Under the pieces are notes generated by a model that saw only the letters and a list, made by a program, of their open reading frames with translations, was not told the DNA's origin and ran no database searches. From Leeuwenhoekiella sp. (GTDB lineage: Bacteria; Bacteroidota; Bacteroidia; Flavobacteriales; Flavobacteriaceae), in assembly GCA_002708845.1 (NCBI GenBank), contig PAPI01000001.1, positions 372,001 through 436,000 on the forward strand: 64,000 nucleotides of DNA, read 5' to 3'. Below, in pieces: positions 22,033 through 29,389 of this stretch (positions are counted from its first letter, which is position 1; every line of letters begins with the position of its first letter). A program made the translations under genes and the position numbers.

Positions 22033-22518
22033 ATGAAAACAATTTATCTGGTAAGGCACGCCAAGTCTTCCTGGGAATATGATCTTAAAGACCACGATCG
22101 CCCGCTTAATGACCGGGGCTTAGGAGATGCTCCGTTAATGGGAGCTTACATTCGTGAAAGAATCGAGTTGCCTCAGTTGGTGCTTAGCAGCGACGCGGTA
22201 CGGGCAAAAACGACAGCACTTTTATACCTTAAAGAATTGGGTATTCCTGAAGAGCAGTTGCAACTTGATCATCGTTTATATGATTTTGGCGGAACCAAAT
22301 TGGACAAAGTCATTAAATCTTGCGATGACAGCGTAGATCGATTGATGGTTTTTGGCCACAATAATGCCCTAACGTATTGGGTAAACCGATACGGAGATCA
22401 GGAAATTGATAATGTATCAACCGCCGCATTTACGGCAATTCAATTCAAAGTAAAAAGCTGGGCTGACATAAGTAATGGAAAAACCATTCTCTATGTGAAA
22501 CCAAAGCAACTTAAATAA
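22033..22518 (+). CDS. sixA: SixA-like phosphohistidine phosphatase
   Basis: 161 residues from the ATG at 22033; a longer TTG start at 21994 would overlap pdxH. It belongs to the histidine phosphatase (RHG) family: LVRHAKSSW at 6-14 has the Arg-His pair, and VFGHNNALTYWVNR (about 107-120) has the second His. It is short, as in SixA, which removes phosphate from histidine of signalling proteins. Its stop overlaps the ppk1 start by one base, so it is coupled to polyphosphate kinase. The protein substrate here is unknown. Confidence 0.9.
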   Translation: MKTIYLVRHAKSSWEYDLKDHDRPLNDRGLGDAPLMGAYIRERIELPQLVLSSDAVRAKTTALLYLKELGIPEEQLQLDHRLYDFGGTKLDKVIKSCDDSVDRLMVFGHNNALTYWVNRYGDQEIDNVSTAAFTAIQFKVKSWADISNGKTILYVKPKQLK

Positions 22519-24602
22519 TGGATAACCGAATCAGTATGTCAACCCTCCAAGCAGATGAATCCCGATATATTAACCGTGAAATAAGTTGGCTGCAGTTTAA
22601 TGCCCGCGTTTTGCAGGAAGCGGCAGACGAGACCGTGCCACTCATTGAGCGCCTGCGATTTGTAGGGATTTTTTCTAATAATCTGGATGAATTTTTTAAA
22701 GTACGGTATGCTACAGTAAAACGTATTGTTGAAGCAGGAAAAAAGGGCCGAAGGGCTCTTGGAGTTTATGCGGCAGATGAGTTGCTTGAAAAGATTACAA
22801 AAATTGTAATCAAACAACAGGAAGAAAGCCTAAATATACTTGATGATATTCACCAGCGATTGAAAGAAGAAGGAATTTATGTCATCAAAGAAAACGAAGT
22901 TCATTTCCCCGAACACTCTGAATACATCAAAACCTTTTTTACCGAGAAGGTAAGTCCGGCGCTGGTAACCATCGTACTTCGCGATGATCTTGAATTGCCC
23001 CGAATACAGGACCTAGAGGCTTATTTAACTATTAAAATGCGCAAAAAGGGTGTAAAAAAGCCCATTTATGCGTTGGTTGAAATTCCCAGTGAATTAGATC
23101 GGTTTGTTGTACTTCCTCAGGTAGATGGTACAGATTATATCATGTTGCTTGACGATTTGATTCGGTATAACCTGGATTCGGTATTCAGCATATTTGAGTA
23201 TGAAGATATTTCGGCACATATGATTAAAATCACACGGGATGCCGAGCTTGATTTAGAATCTGATCTGGGTAAGAGTTTCATTGAAAAGTTATCTAAAAGT
23301 GTAAAGGGCAGAGAAGACGCTGAGCCCGTACGATTTGTATACGATCAGACTATTGATGATGCTACCCTTCAATTTTTATTGACTAAGCTGGGGATTGAGC
23401 AGTCCGATAGTATCATACCCGGCGGTCGCTATCACAACCGGAAGGATTATATGGATTTCCCCAGTTTAGGGAGAACGGATTTGCTTTATACCAAACAAAA
23501 ACCCTTACTTATAAACGGCATAAGTCTTAACGATAGCATGTTTAAGCGTGTTGCTGAAAAAGACTTTTTACAGTATACGCCCTATCATACGTTTGCTTAT
23601 GTAATAAAATTTTTGCGTGAGGCTGCGTTAGATCCTAAAGTAAAAACCATAAAAATTACTATTTATCGTTTGGCTAAGTTGAGCCACGTGGCCAGTGCAC
23701 TCATCAATGCAGCTAAAAATGGCAAAGAGGTCACCGTGCAAATTGAATTGCGGGCGCGTTTTGATGAAGAATCTAATATGCGTTACGCAAAACAAATGCA
23801 GGACGAGGGTGTAAAGCTCATCTTTGGAGTTCCAGGCCTTAAAGTACACAGTAAAGTTTGTGTGATTGAGCGTCAGGAAGGCACGCGTCTCAAGCGTTAT
23901 GGTTTTATAAGTACCGGAAACTTTAACGGTATGACTGCCCGCATTTATACCGATTATACGCTATTTACCGCAAACAAACAGATTTTAAAAGATTTAGCGA
24001 AGCTTTTCAATTTCTTCGAAACAAACTATATCGTAAACACCTATCAACACCTTATTATTTCACCACATTATGCGCGTAACAGCTTTTATAAGTTGATTGA
24101 AAATGAAATTAAGAAGGTTACCAACGGAGGTAAAGGGTATATAAGGCTAAAGTTAAACAGCATGTCCAACTACGCTATTATAGATCGTTTGTACGCTGCC
24201 AGTCAGGCTGGTGTTAAAATAGACCTTATCATTCGTGGTGTTTGTTGCCTGATCCCAGGAGTGAAGGGGATGAGCGAAAACATCGAATTAATCAGTGTGG
24301 TTGATAAGTTTTTAGAACACCCTAGAGTAATGATTTTTGGGGAAGAAGGTGAGGAGAAAGTATTTATTTCATCTTCAGACTGGATGACGCGTAACCTGGA
24401 TAACCGGGTTGAGGTAACCTGCCCTATTTATGATGAGGATATCAAGAAAGAAATCATTGAGACGTATACCATTTGCTGGAATGATAATGTAAAAGCACGC
24501 CAGATTACCGCGGCGCAGGATAATGCATACCGCAAAAACGACAAGGTTCCGTTACGATCACAGTTTGCTACTTATGATTATTACCTTAATAAACTCAATT
24601 AA
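22518..24602 (+). CDS. ppk1: Ppk1, polyphosphate kinase
   Basis: 694 residues. It makes polyphosphate from ATP via an autophosphorylated His. It begins with YINREISWLQFNARVLQEA (17-35), the usual N-domain start. The catalytic His is in PGLKVHSKVCVIER (E. coli His435 context), and the second conserved His in VVDKFLEHPRVMIF (His592 context). YGFISTGNFNGMTARIYTDY follows the first. Length is normal. The start overlaps the sixA stop by 1 base (TAATG), and ppx follows after 2 bases, giving sixA-ppk1-ppx as a translationally coupled unit. Confidence 0.96.
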   Translation: MDNRISMSTLQADESRYINREISWLQFNARVLQEAADETVPLIERLRFVGIFSNNLDEFFKVRYATVKRIVEAGKKGRRALGVYAADELLEKITKIVIKQQEESLNILDDIHQRLKEEGIYVIKENEVHFPEHSEYIKTFFTEKVSPALVTIVLRDDLELPRIQDLEAYLTIKMRKKGVKKPIYALVEIPSELDRFVVLPQVDGTDYIMLLDDLIRYNLDSVFSIFEYEDISAHMIKITRDAELDLESDLGKSFIEKLSKSVKGREDAEPVRFVYDQTIDDATLQFLLTKLGIEQSDSIIPGGRYHNRKDYMDFPSLGRTDLLYTKQKPLLINGISLNDSMFKRVAEKDFLQYTPYHTFAYVIKFLREAALDPKVKTIKITIYRLAKLSHVASALINAAKNGKEVTVQIELRARFDEESNMRYAKQMQDEGVKLIFGVPGLKVHSKVCVIERQEGTRLKRYGFISTGNFNGMTARIYTDYTLFTANKQILKDLAKLFNFFETNYIVNTYQHLIISPHYARNSFYKLIENEIKKVTNGGKGYIRLKLNSMSNYAIIDRLYAASQAGVKIDLIIRGVCCLIPGVKGMSENIELISVVDKFLEHPRVMIFGEEGEEKVFISSSDWMTRNLDNRVEVTCPIYDEDIKKEIIETYTICWNDNVKARQITAAQDNAYRKNDKVPLRSQFATYDYYLNKLN

Positions 24603-24604
24603 TT

Positions 24605-25504
24605 ATGCTTCAACTGAAAAAATATGGTGCTATTGATATCGGTTCTAATGCCATTCGTCTTTTGGTGGCGAATGTAATAGAGTCTGAAGGTAACGATCCT
24701 GTTTTTCGAAAAAACTCTCTGGTACGGGTTCCCATTCGTCTGGGGGCTGATGTTTTTAAAGAGAAGCGTATTTCCGAAGAAAACATCACACGTATGGTTG
24801 ACACAATGGAAGCCTTTAAATTACTGATGCGTTCTCACCGCGTTATTGAGTATCGCGCCTGTGCGACCAGTGCAATGCGTGAAGCTGAAAATGGAGATGA
24901 AGTTGTCAAAATTATTAAAAAGAAAACCGGGGTTAACATAAACATCATTAACGGTAATGATGAAGCTGCGATTATTGCAAATACCGATTTACAATCTCTT
25001 ATAACTTCTGACCGATCATATTTATATGTAGACGTAGGTGGTGGTAGTACCGAATTTACCCTATATAGTGGAGGAGAGGTTGTCGCCTCCAAATCTTTTA
25101 AACTGGGAACTGTACGTATTTTGGAAGGTCTGGTAGGGCATACCATTTGGGAAGAGGTTGAAACCTGGATTAAAGAAGTGACTAAGGGGCACACAAGAAT
25201 CGATCTAATAGGATCAGGGGGTAACATTAATAAGATATTTAAACTGAGCGGAAAAAAGGATGGTAAGCCTTTAACCTATTTTTATATGGTAAGTTTTTAC
25301 GAATTCCTACAATCGTATACTTACGAGGAACGGGTTATTGAGTTGGGTCTTAATCTTGATAGAGCTGATGTAATCATACCAGCTACAAGGATTTACCTTT
25401 CTGCAATGAAGTGGAGCCGGGCTAAAAATATTCACGTCCCAAAGATTGGGCTGTCAGACGGCATCATAAAATCGCTCTACAACGATAAAAGACAGGTTGT
25501 TTAG
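24605..25504 (+). CDS. ppx: Ppx/GppA family exopolyphosphatase
   Basis: 299 residues, actin/hexokinase-like ATPase fold. It starts KYGAIDIGSNAIRLLVANV (6-24), the phosphate-1 loop, and has YVDVGGGSTEFTLYSGG (phosphate-2, about 141-157) and LIGSGGNINKIFKL. It corresponds to the two N-terminal domains only; the C-terminal HD-like extension of E. coli Ppx is absent, giving the short form common in Bacteroidota. It lies 2 bases after ppk1, so synthesis and breakdown of polyphosphate (or pppGpp hydrolysis) are co-expressed. Confidence 0.92.
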   Translation: MLQLKKYGAIDIGSNAIRLLVANVIESEGNDPVFRKNSLVRVPIRLGADVFKEKRISEENITRMVDTMEAFKLLMRSHRVIEYRACATSAMREAENGDEVVKIIKKKTGVNINIINGNDEAAIIANTDLQSLITSDRSYLYVDVGGGSTEFTLYSGGEVVASKSFKLGTVRILEGLVGHTIWEEVETWIKEVTKGHTRIDLIGSGGNINKIFKLSGKKDGKPLTYFYMVSFYEFLQSYTYEERVIELGLNLDRADVIIPATRIYLSAMKWSRAKNIHVPKIGLSDGIIKSLYNDKRQVV

Positions 25505-26188: not shown

Positions 26189-26770
26189 TTAACCATGAAC
26201 AGTCTGGTCTTTGCCAAGATCTTTCATGATTTCAGCTTCATAGGTAAGCAGATCATCCCATTTTTTGTTGACCTCCTGTTCATCACCATATTTACGGGCA
26301 AACTTTAGAAACATCGTATAGTGATTGGCTTCACTAACCATTAGGTTGTGATAAAATGTGCGCAGTTCCGGGTCCTCCAATTCTTTAGATAAAAGCCTGA
26401 ACCTTTCACAGCTTCGGGCCTCAATGAGCGCAGCATATAGTAGTCTGTGTACTAACTGTGTGGTCCTGCTTCCGCCTTTAGGGAAAAACTTGAGCAGCTT
26501 ATTTACATACAGGTCCTTACGGTCTTGTCCTAAAGTATTGCCCCGCGCAATGATCTTGTCATGCACTAGTTTAAAATGGCTTATTTCTTCTTTGACCAAA
26601 GCAATCATTTCCTGTACGAGCTCTGTGTATTCGGGAAATGAGACAATCAGGGAGATAGCTGTAGAGGCCGCTTTTTGTTCACAAAAAGCGTGGTCTGAAA
26701 GAATATCGTCTATATTCATCTCTACTATATTGACCCATCTGGGGTCTGTGGGTAATTTAAGTCCTAACAT
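26189..26770 (-). CDS. miaE: MiaE-like tRNA-(ms2io6A) hydroxylase
   Basis: 193 residues, ferritin-like four-helix diiron protein. It hydroxylates the isopentenyl group of ms2i6A at tRNA position 37 in Salmonella. Diiron ligand pattern: ILSDHAFCEQKAASTAISLI (first Glu), ALVKEEISHFKLVHD (E-x-x-H), LIEARSCERFRLLSKEL (second Glu) and LMVSEANHYTMFLKFARK (E-x-x-H). Length is normal. Its ATG overlaps the dnaX stop by one base (TAATG), so it is coupled to the tau-frame end of dnaX. Confidence 0.92.
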   Translation of the reverse strand: MLGLKLPTDPRWVNIVEMNIDDILSDHAFCEQKAASTAISLIVSFPEYTELVQEMIALVKEEISHFKLVHDKIIARGNTLGQDRKDLYVNKLLKFFPKGGSRTTQLVHRLLYAALIEARSCERFRLLSKELEDPELRTFYHNLMVSEANHYTMFLKFARKYGDEQEVNKKWDDLLTYEAEIMKDLGKDQTVHG

Positions 26771-28514
26771 TAGATATCGAGATCAAAAGTTTTACGCAAT
26801 AGTTCAAGATCAGGGTTCTTATCCTTCAATTTTTCATACTTCTCGCGGGTGGTGTACGCATATTTTCGCTCTGCCGCCTCATTTACAGTGATTGCAATGG
26901 TAATATCGTAATTACGTAATTTCCGTTTTAAAAATTCAAGAAGCCCACCCTGTGCACGCTCCAGTTCAATTTTCATTGTTTCATTCGGAAATTCCAGATG
27001 AATGGTTGTGCCCTGTAGGGTAGGAGTATCGGTTTCGAGATTAGAAGCCAGTATTTTTTCACCTTTCTTTTGTAGCCGGGATACATACTCTTTCCAGGCG
27101 GCCTGCATTGCAACCTCCGTAAACGATTCTCGCGGTAGTTTACTTGCATCAACCTCTTCAAGAGTTTGTTTTTCAAGAATTTCTTTTTTCCGCTTTAAAC
27201 CTTTAAGAGAAAGACCTGAAACGGGTTTCTTTGCGGTAATTGGGGCAGCTGGCAGCTCAGTTGACTTAGTTTGCTGAGCAGTCGTATTATTAGCTTCCGG
27301 TTGAATTACTGCGGTGGTATCAGTTGACTCTGAGGTTTGTTTTTGTTGTTCCGGTTGAGTTTTTGAGTTTTGGGAATGAGCCGGACGCACCGGAACAGCA
27401 TTTTTAAAATAACTTGCCGGAATTATGAAATCAGAGGCTTTTTTTTTTCTCCATCAAAAGTGATAGAGGCAAGCTGCATCAGGCAAAGTTCAACCAGTAG
27501 TCTGGGATTGCGGCTGGTGCGGTATTTCAAATCGCATTCATTGGCTTTGTCAAGCGCTTGCATCAAAAAAGAAAGACTTGTCTTTTCAGCCTGATCCTTG
27601 TATTTTTTCTGTGTGCCTTCACCCACTTCAAGTAATGGGATTGTAGCGGTATTTTTACAAACCATTAGATCCCTGAAATGGGATGCAAGGCCGGCAATAA
27701 AATGATGCCCGTCAAACCCTCGGGATAGAATCTCATTAAAATGCAAAAGTAGCTGAGGAATATTATTCTCAAGCAATAAATCAGTAATCTCAAAATAGGT
27801 ATCGTAATCGAGTACATTTAGATTCTCGGTCACGGCTGCTCGCGTAAGATTATCTCCGCAAAAACTGACTACCCGGTCAAACGTTGAAAGAGCATCGCGC
27901 AGTGCACCATCGGCTTTTTGAGCAATGATATGCAAGGCTTCTTCTTCGGCAGTAATGCCTTCCTGTTTAGCGATATCTACCAGATGTTCCCGAATATCTT
28001 TAACCGTAATTCGTTTGAAATCGAAAATTTGACAGCGGGATAGAATGGTTGGGATTATCTTATGCTTTTCGGTAGTTGCCAGAATAAAAATGGCATGTTT
28101 AGGCGGTTCTTCCAGTGTTTTCAGAAATGCGTTGAAAGCAGCTGAAGAAAGCATATGTACCTCATCAATGATGTAAACCTTGTATTTGCCTACCTGAGGT
28201 GCAATACGTACCTGATCTATAAGATTACGTATATCATCTACCGAATTATTTGAGGCAGCATCCAGCTCAAAGATATTAAAAGCGTAATCCTCATTTTCAT
28301 CCACCTGTTCATCAGCCTCCTGGTTGATTTTTTTTGCTAAAATACGGGCACAGGTGGTTTTACCCACACCGCGAGGTCCTGTAAAAAGCAAGGCCTGAGC
28401 CAGGTGATTGTTTTTTATAGCATTTTCAAGCGTATTTGTAATAGCCTGTTGGCCTACCACGTCTTTAAACGTTGCAGGTCTGTATTTTCGGGCTGATACG
28501 ATAAACTGTTCCAC
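26770..28514 (-). CDS. dnaX: DnaX, DNA polymerase III clamp-loader subunit tau/gamma, in two frames joined at an A10 run
   Basis: The clamp-loader ATPase. The likely start is GTG at 28514 (MEQFIVSARKYRPATF), 46 bases after a TATATTTG box; the longer ATG at 28562 would overlap that box. Zero frame: Walker A GPRGVGKT (46-53), Walker B YIIDEVH (114-120), sensor DAASNNSVDDIR (85-96), then TAA at 27423 giving 363 residues. The usual zinc-module cysteines between Walker A and DAASN are absent, replaced by an acidic stretch. The -1 frame continues from the A10 run (27448-27439) without a stop, reading KASDFIIPASYFKNAVPVR, a low-complexity linker, then a folded C-terminal domain to 26770. A slip gives 581 residues (tau-like). 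Polarity is the reverse of E. coli, where the shift makes gamma. A sequencing error of one base cannot be excluded. Confidence 0.9.
27439..27448 (-). other. A10 slippery run in dnaX (candidate -1 frameshift or transcriptional slippage site)
   Basis: Ten consecutive A on the minus strand, read zero-frame as GAA AAA AAA AAG then CCT CTG ATT TCA TAA. Slipping back one base gives AAA GCC TCT GAT and opens 223 more codons. One extra A in the transcript has the same effect; one fewer A leads to a stop after two codons. GGAG lies immediately 5' of the run, too close to act like the E. coli upstream Shine-Dalgarno stimulator. Only weak downstream pairing (CCGG repeats) is visible. Confidence 0.75.
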
Positions 28515-28685: not shown

Positions 28686-28690
28686 CCGTA

Positions 28691-29001
28691 AGCAGACCGC
28701 CTTATCGCTTTAGACCATTTAGGCTCTAAGGAGGAAAGTCCGGACACCAGAGGGAGGCATAGCGGCTAACGGCCGTCTGGCTTAGTTTAAGTCAAGGACC
28801 AGTGCAACAGAAAGGATGTACAGGTAATGCTGTAGTGAAATCAGGTAAACTCTATGCGGTGCAATGTCATGTAAACCGGCAATTAAGTGTTTCCCGCGCG
28901 ATGCCGGAGGGTAGACAGATAGAGCTTTTGAGTAATCAAAAGTCCAGATAAATGATAAGGTATTACTTAGGTAAGAACAGAATCCGGCTTACAGGTCTGC
29001 T
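28691..29001 (+). ncRNA. rnpB: RNase P RNA, bacterial type A
   Basis: The catalytic RNA of RNase P that matures the 5' end of tRNA. Conserved segments are present in order: P1 5' arm AGCAGACCGCC near 28691, AGGAGGAAAGTCCGGACACC (CR-I region, about 28729), ACAGAAAGGATGTACAGG, and the 3' ACAGAATCCGGCTTACAGG (CR-V region, about 28977) followed by the P1 3' arm GGTCTGC ending at 29000. A T7 run follows, so the P1 stem end doubles as a terminator-like structure. About 311 bases, normal for the family. The convergent gene's stop codon (29006) falls in the T tract. Confidence 0.95.
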
Positions 29002-29005
29002 TTTT

Positions 29006-29389
29006 TTATTGTGCTTCAACAAACGTGTTGGCCCAGTCAATAGCTTCTTTTAAAGTCCCAAAGATTTTGGTTCTCTTTGTCATGAAATTCTTTTCGAAAT
29101 TTGCCGTTTGCATTTTAGAGGCCGTTTCAGTCACTATTGCAACTCCTATCATGTTGGAAATTCCAATGCAGTTAAGATAATCAACAGGATTTACATTAAA
29201 ATCGTATTTCCGATTTGATATATATATGTAAGGTTTTGCTGTACCGTAATATTCTTCTAAAATGACTAGTACTTCATCAAATAAATCGCGCGTAAGATAA
29301 CAACCTTCCTTTACCTCAGAAATCACATAATTTTGAGAGCAGGTAAGTCTTGTGAAGCTTAATGCGTATTCTTTTATTTCTACAGGCAT
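29006..29389 (-). CDS. Small protein, SpoIIAA/STAS-like (uncharacterised)
   Basis: 127 residues, no signal peptide. Strand/helix alternation (YIYISNRKYDFNVNPVDYL, GVAIVTETASKMQTANFEKN) and the final FGTLKEAIDWANTF resemble SpoIIAA-like (STAS/SEC14) proteins common in Bacteroidota, which end in a similar helix. No catalytic residues are evident. It lies 33 bases downstream of rsmD and its stop sits in the rnpB terminator tract, so both transcripts meet there. Family assignment is tentative. Confidence 0.7.
   Translation of the reverse strand: MPVEIKEYALSFTRLTCSQNYVISEVKEGCYLTRDLFDEVLVILEEYYGTAKPYIYISNRKYDFNVNPVDYLNCIGISNMIGVAIVTETASKMQTANFEKNFMTKRTKIFGTLKEAIDWANTFVEAQ

Follow-up and report, generated by a model that had tools for sequence, protein, structure and literature searches.

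Is a dnaX gene that changes reading frame at a run of ten A's a broken gene, or is it one gene from which two clamp-loader subunits are made? The question is raised by a 64 kb stretch of DNA from Leeuwenhoekiella sp., a marine member of the Flavobacteriaceae (the whole of which we call the window), where dnaX lies on the minus strand and reads ...GAT GGA GAA AAA AAA AAG CCT CTG ATT TCA TAA... at the junction between its two frames.

Two dnaX reading frames meet at a run of ten A's

Frame 0 encodes a 363 aa protein corresponding to gamma (27423..28514, minus strand), which runs from a GTG start at 28514 to a TAA at 27425-27423 and comprises the AAA+ ATPase, lid and domain III (Pfam DNA_pol3_delta2, DNAX_ATPase_lid and DNA_pol3_gamma3). 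The N part matches TIGR02397 dnaX_nterm (E 6.9e-120). Among the 80 top matches retained from at least 577 candidates, the closest that carries a name is Leeuwenhoekiella palythoae DSM 19859, which is 91% identical in the N part and shares the dnaX architecture of the window. The proposed slippage site (27439..27448, minus strand) consists of exactly ten A's in the codons GAA AAA AAA AAG, and includes an in-frame A_AAA_AAG heptamer. The gamma-ending TAA (27423..27425) lies 13 nt downstream of this A10 tract, and the +1 frame meets a stop 5 nt past it. The -1 frame stays open from immediately upstream of A10 through to a TAA at 26772-26770, and encodes a tail corresponding to that of tau (26770..27438, minus strand; 222 aa plus stop) with a FIIPASYF junction, a variable linker and a conserved C-terminal domain. 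Adding these 222 residues to the 359 that precede the tail, up to the last Lys, gives a tau of 581 aa.

An earlier note on this DNA had described this split at A10, with the AAA+ region ending at the TAA at 27423, a tau-like C-terminal region in the -1 frame whose stop is shared with the miaE start at 26770, products of 363 and 581 aa, and a one-base backward slip that joins the frames; the reading frames and lengths bear out this description throughout, the -1 frame being free of stops across A10. Whether the frames are joined by a one-base backward slip or by one added A in the mRNA, the junction reads E-K-K-K-A-S-D-F-I-I-P, so the protein cannot discriminate a transcriptional from a ribosomal mechanism; the tau junction peptide predicted for the window's own strain is KKKASDFIIPASYFK. 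The last base of the tau TAA is also the first base of the miaE ATG (26189..26770, minus strand; MiaE Pfam PF06175, E 3.5e-43), and we infer from this layout that miaE may be translationally coupled to the tau reading of dnaX.

The A-run is conserved across the genus and beyond

We compared 13 Leeuwenhoekiella genomes from 13 different species, one of which (G011) is a single contig. The combination of A10 with a tail in the -1 frame is present in 10/13 of these genomes, window included (9/12 of the other species). In the remaining three (G006, G007 and G012) the run is likewise exactly ten A's, and the tail continues in frame 0 to give a single continuous frame. The earlier note had proposed programmed recoding with reversed polarity, and this comparison across relatives supports it. 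It had also named single-frame relatives lacking the A run as an observation that would speak against the idea; continuous-frame relatives do exist, but all three keep A10, and a single-frame dnaX without an A run was found in 0/13 Leeuwenhoekiella genomes.

To place these genomes in a wider setting, we assembled 204 dnaX loci from 58 near genomes, 79 named records and 67 loci across the phylum. The near set consisted of 60 genomes including the window's own, 58 of which had a full dnaX match (G039 and G059 gave weak matches and were left out). For the named set, the top 80 were retained from at least 577 candidates and 79 of them used, as L063 duplicates L012, and the phylum set combined 27 loci returned by a search of 148 genomes (two repeats omitted) with 40 picked by hand. 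The surveyed loci are related, so that counts among them are not independent.

In 191/204 of the loci a run of at least nine A's is found no more than 26 codons past domain III, with lengths of 9 in 19, 10 in 157, 11 in 14 and 13 in one, the last at a contig end. Such a run is present in 128/128 loci with N-domain identity of at least 75%, and in 117 of them it is exactly ten. One locus (G047, L058) has A7 at the usual site and A12 45 codons further down, with tau in frame 0, and its A12 is perhaps a moved slippage site. Only 12/204 loci are without any such run, one of them from the same family (G032, L046) and the rest at 66% identity or below, or of unmeasured identity (two). In G032, whose tail is encoded in -1, the junction reads GTG GAA AAG TAA (around codons 345-360) and has no A run, for which a decayed site, an assembly error and another recoding signal are candidate readings. 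Overall, the arrangement of dnaX around a probably slippery run proves to be old and widespread.

Ten A's are not by themselves beyond chance for the composition of the window, which holds one A10 against 4.26 expected from shuffles; it is the position of the tract, together with its conservation in all 128 of the closer loci, that makes it more than a chance run. Genome-wide we count 29 overlapping A10 matches in 4.35 Mb, equal to 19 distinct runs, compared with roughly 290 when the shuffle expectation is extrapolated, a rough figure as one window stands for all. A10 runs thus seem to be avoided in this genome, as would be expected if such runs slip.

Besides dnaX, 3/19 A10 runs are interior, by more than 100 nt, to an ORF of at least 100 codons (L205, L213 and L227). 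The run at L227 (C37:2916-2925 of the same genome) is interior to a sulfotransferase ORF (PF03567, E 4.5e-8), and that at L205 (C3:9159-9168) to a long ORF with no Pfam match; these two are possible further slippage sites.

The encoded frame varies while the tract length stays

For frame assignments we excluded L022, L051, L115 and L126, which end before a stop in every frame, and among the 188 readable loci tau is encoded in frame 0 in 116, in -1 in 69 and in +1 in 3 (115/69/3 of 187 if L058 is set aside), proportions that should not be read as frequencies for the distant loci, which were partly chosen for short open frames. Two of the +1 loci have A10 (L040 and L180); the third, L123 from Flavobacterium sp. 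YO12, has A9 as against A10 in the other Flavobacterium loci, and its +1 tail may be an assembly error. Parsimony on a tree of 188 N-domains gives at least 23 changes between split and unsplit states, or 25 with three states; on this single tree, built quickly and with no mixture model, 23 is a minimum. One of these split-state changes falls inside Leeuwenhoekiella. Independent pairs of frame-0 and -1 loci number 11 on well-supported branches and 22 on all branches, and both states occur within Leeuwenhoekiella, Aquimarina, Flagellimonas and the distant groups g77 and g82.

The sequence following the run indicates how these changes arise. In loci with N identity of at least 75% and A10, the distance from the run end to an ATAATTC-like block is 13 nt in 54/77 tau-0 loci and 12 nt in 33/38 tau -1 loci, the remainder comprising 21 loci without the block and 7 with another spacing (one tau-0 locus at 12 nt and one tau -1 locus at 13 nt among them). 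The two spacings imply that the frame usually changes through a base lost or gained adjoining the run, with the ten A's retained. That in Flavobacteriaceae the frame usually differs beside A10, with run length kept, is the strongest comparative result to come from these sequences.

In 174/188 loci, both non-tau frames have met a stop within 23 nt after the run. At random positions in the same genes, the same is true of 24% in the tail and 23% in the N part (3760 draws each). With both non-tau frames closing this fast, most slips would give either tau or, soon after, a gamma. One reading of these data is that dnaX is frame-agnostic in Bacteroidota and allied lineages, with A10 as the unit that selection acts on, mixing the frames to the point where the encoded tau frame drifts nearly neutrally. 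We consider this as likely to be right as wrong; its basis would be 11 independent contrasts between frames 0 and -1 on well-supported branches, together with the three +1 cases. If true, RNA-polymerase slippage on about ten A's, and not the encoded frame, would set the tau:gamma ratio.

Transcriptional slippage as the probable mechanism

Taken together, the architecture, the conservation, the fixed tract with an unfixed frame, the near stops, the selection on the tail (see below) and the lack of excess RNA structure lead us to consider transcriptional slippage on A10 the probable main mechanism by which one dnaX gene yields two clamp-loader subunits. RNA polymerase would slip on A10 and give a mixed population of dnaX mRNAs, with ten-A transcripts producing a gamma that terminates 13 nt past the run, and transcripts with one added A, or otherwise in the -1 frame, producing tau. 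From these features we infer slippage by the polymerase, not by the ribosome, and synthesis of both proteins. The earlier note had offered slippage and -1 frameshifting side by side, and the first of the two fits the comparison better; its further suggestion was that the cell may tune the tau:gamma ratio through A10.

A ribosomal heptamer needs no more than six or seven A's. A conserved run of at least nine A's exceeds this need and counts for slippage by RNA polymerase, in a background where A occupies the third position of 77% of Lys codons and 74% of Glu codons outside the tract in the N part (only these background values were used, as the same test is circular inside a tract whose rows were chosen for at least nine A's). 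In the excerpts of Antonov et al. (PMC3711429), differing shift direction among orthologues is given as a sign of transcriptional realignment, and by this criterion the varying shift direction among our dnaX orthologues also points to transcriptional slippage. The 69:3 excess of -1 over +1 splits is compatible both with insertion-biased slippage and with -1 shifting.

Some features of the sequence favour a contribution from the ribosome. An in-frame A_AAA_AAG, as seen in the window, occurs in 50/69 tau -1 loci compared with 31/116 tau-0 loci, and a G directly follows the run in 60/69 versus 39/116. This pattern favours some -1 ribosomal shifting at A_AAA_AAG, which may therefore be at work, and in one alternative both processes act, slippage accounting for the bulk of the frame mixing, with -1 ribosomal shifting added where AAG follows the run. 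The long run, along with the commoner in-frame AAG in tau -1 loci, would fit such a combination; however, of the 11 independent pairs, 4.6 show G together with the -1 state and 0.3 show the opposite (median p 0.125, not significant), leaving the association suggestive only once relatedness is allowed for. Additionally, T follows the run in 49/116 tau-0 loci and can form a -1 stop there, which by itself lowers G in these loci and explains part of the association. We find this combination possible although doubtful; it overlaps with slippage as the main mechanism, and the probabilities we attach to the readings do not sum to one.

A second alternative is that -1 programmed ribosomal frameshifting at A_AAA_AAG acts alone, on a faithful mRNA and with tau as the shifted product. 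Beyond the heptamer and G counts, it draws on a tRNA-Lys repertoire that, in a scan of 30/33 tRNA loci, showed only UUU, the same as E. coli, and on a GGAG immediately 5' of the run. That GGAG, however, abuts the run and by eye sits 4 nt from the heptamer, as against 10 nt in E. coli, the run holds at least nine A's although six would do, and the in-frame heptamer is absent from 19/69 tau -1 and 3/3 tau +1 loci. Bacteroidia ribosomes moreover occlude the anti-SD according to excerpts of PMC8710568, but the same excerpts report a prfB frameshift in 523/726 Bacteroidia genomes, so that SD-assisted recoding is possible in this class and the occlusion argument weighs little.

Downstream RNA structure also stands against ribosomal shifting alone, as it is not in excess among the 188 loci, the mean z at 40 nt being -0.3 for the 69 split loci. 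Over the same 40 nt the window locus (L005) folds at -3.1 kcal/mol (z -0.15), compared with -19.1 kcal/mol (z -2.5) for the E. coli control. The z-score is weak at 60-80 nt, where even the E. coli control reaches only -0.45 and -0.52, and the contrast with E. coli consequently rests on the 40 nt values and the energies. An Rfam search contained no frameshift or recoding element among its 4 matches up to E 10. Weighing these points, we regard ribosomal frameshifting alone as unlikely, and retain transcriptional slippage on A10 as the preferred reading.

The tail is most likely read as part of tau

The predicted tail has as its top profile match PRK14971 (gamma/tau), over C-terminal positions 406-613 of 614 (E 2.1e-23); no Pfam model covers the 222-residue region in a Pfam search. 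Across the ten split species, the median dN/dS of the tail in the -1 frame is about 0.11 versus 0.024 for the N part, both ratios being rough as dS is near 1.8, and differences by codon position number 2552, 1657 and 5054. These comparisons indicate purifying selection on the tail as read in -1. Residues I5, I6, P7 and F11 are conserved in 90% or more of the 31 tails compared (those of loci read on the plus strand), both architectures included, and beyond the FIIPASYF junction the linker is variable. In the tail frame no ATG, GTG or TTG occurs before a GTG at 27390, corresponding to tail residue 17; residues 4-11 (FIIPASYF) precede it and are conserved nonetheless, which makes it most likely that the tail is read through from the A10 tract. 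This conservation bears on a further alternative, gene fission, in which the tail would be a separate protein with its own start at GTG 27390. A 206-aa ORF from that GTG is present, yet FIIPASYF lies upstream of it and relatives have the same tail fused within one frame, and we judge fission highly improbable.

Finally, many of the compared genomes are drafts and assemblies commonly go wrong by one base at homopolymers, but a sequencing error or a frameshift mutation in a dying gene, which the earlier note had kept as its alternative, is refuted by the same A10 split in 10/13 genomes of the genus (the single-contig G011 among them), by a frame difference that lies in a base adjoining the run with A-run length unaffected, and by a tail that at dN/dS 0.11 is not neutral, so that for practical purposes these comparisons exclude it and we leave it the smallest probability of all.

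Comparisons with solved structures gave only weak matches for the tail, with DUF721 (DciA) at E 0.23 by sequence, and with DnaA domain I and DciA in a fold comparison whose best E was 0.047, none reaching 0.001 or below (model pLDDT 76, pTM 0.49). These matches hint at a replisome-type domain and do not by themselves prove identity with tau domain V.

Neighbouring features and implications

Divergent from dnaX lies a full-length class A RNase P RNA (28689-29007, plus strand; Rfam RF00010, 210.8 bits), whose end is overlapped by 2 nt by a minus-strand ORF at 29006-29389. Elsewhere in the window (22518-25504, plus strand), 2 nt separate a polyphosphate kinase from a Ppx/GppA phosphatase downstream of it, the two forming a make-and-break polyphosphate pair.

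As excerpts of PMC3711429 state that RefSeq annotated no programmed frameshift in any of its 17 dnaX genes, an essential replication gene may pass for broken in many such genomes. The same A10 with different encoded frames within one genus also constitutes a natural experiment: if the tau:gamma ratio were equal in split and unsplit species, the tract would be what sets it, and such species would further reveal the frequency with which slippage buffering lets a coding frame flip without loss.

Comparison with known systems

Our literature search (preprints outside its scope, few subscription papers covered) turned up nothing on dnaX of Leeuwenhoekiella, and none of the titles or abstract openings concerned a frame that switches while tract length stays fixed. 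The window's dnaX is of a kind already known. In 2013, Antonov et al. (PMC3711429) described two-ORF dnaX in 17 genes, nine of them with ten A's, and proposed transcriptional realignment; as in the window, frame 0 gives gamma there and a -1 transition gives tau. The excerpted text places the species behind the nine A10 tracts in its supplement (Supplementary Figure S3). Atkins et al. 2016 (PMC5009743) restates these genes and, in the part seen, remarks that at efficiencies near 50% the products can swap roles through a single base change. The frame-agnostic idea is thus partly in print, with breadth and fixed tract length new relative to that account. Compared with the PMC3711429 set, our sequences add the genus Leeuwenhoekiella, breadth, repeated frame switching inside genera, and a near-fixed run length over 204 loci.

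Escherichia coli dnaX (excerpts of PMC3711429 and PMC5009743) shares with the window A_AAA_AAG and the same two expected products. It carries A6 together with a stem-loop and a spaced SD-like sequence, and none of the three is seen at the window's dnaX, where of the E. coli-type features the in-frame heptamer is present and a 3' stem-loop and an SD-like stimulator about 10 nt upstream are absent. The polarity is also opposite, as the window's encoded frame gives gamma. Three sequence features of slippage-type dnaX genes, in comparison, are found here: a conserved run of at least nine A's at the end of domain III, near stops in both non-tau frames and, as in the two-ORF subtype, a selected -1 tail; membership of this type would further imply mRNAs that vary in their number of A's and two proteins near 1:1. 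A parallel in this respect is Thermus thermophilus dnaX, which undergoes transcriptional slippage on A9 (excerpts of PMC1088944 and PMC5009743) and likewise combines an A-run with close stops in both other frames; in Thermus the encoded frame is tau and slippage leads to gamma, whereas in the window this relation is reversed, on a run of ten.
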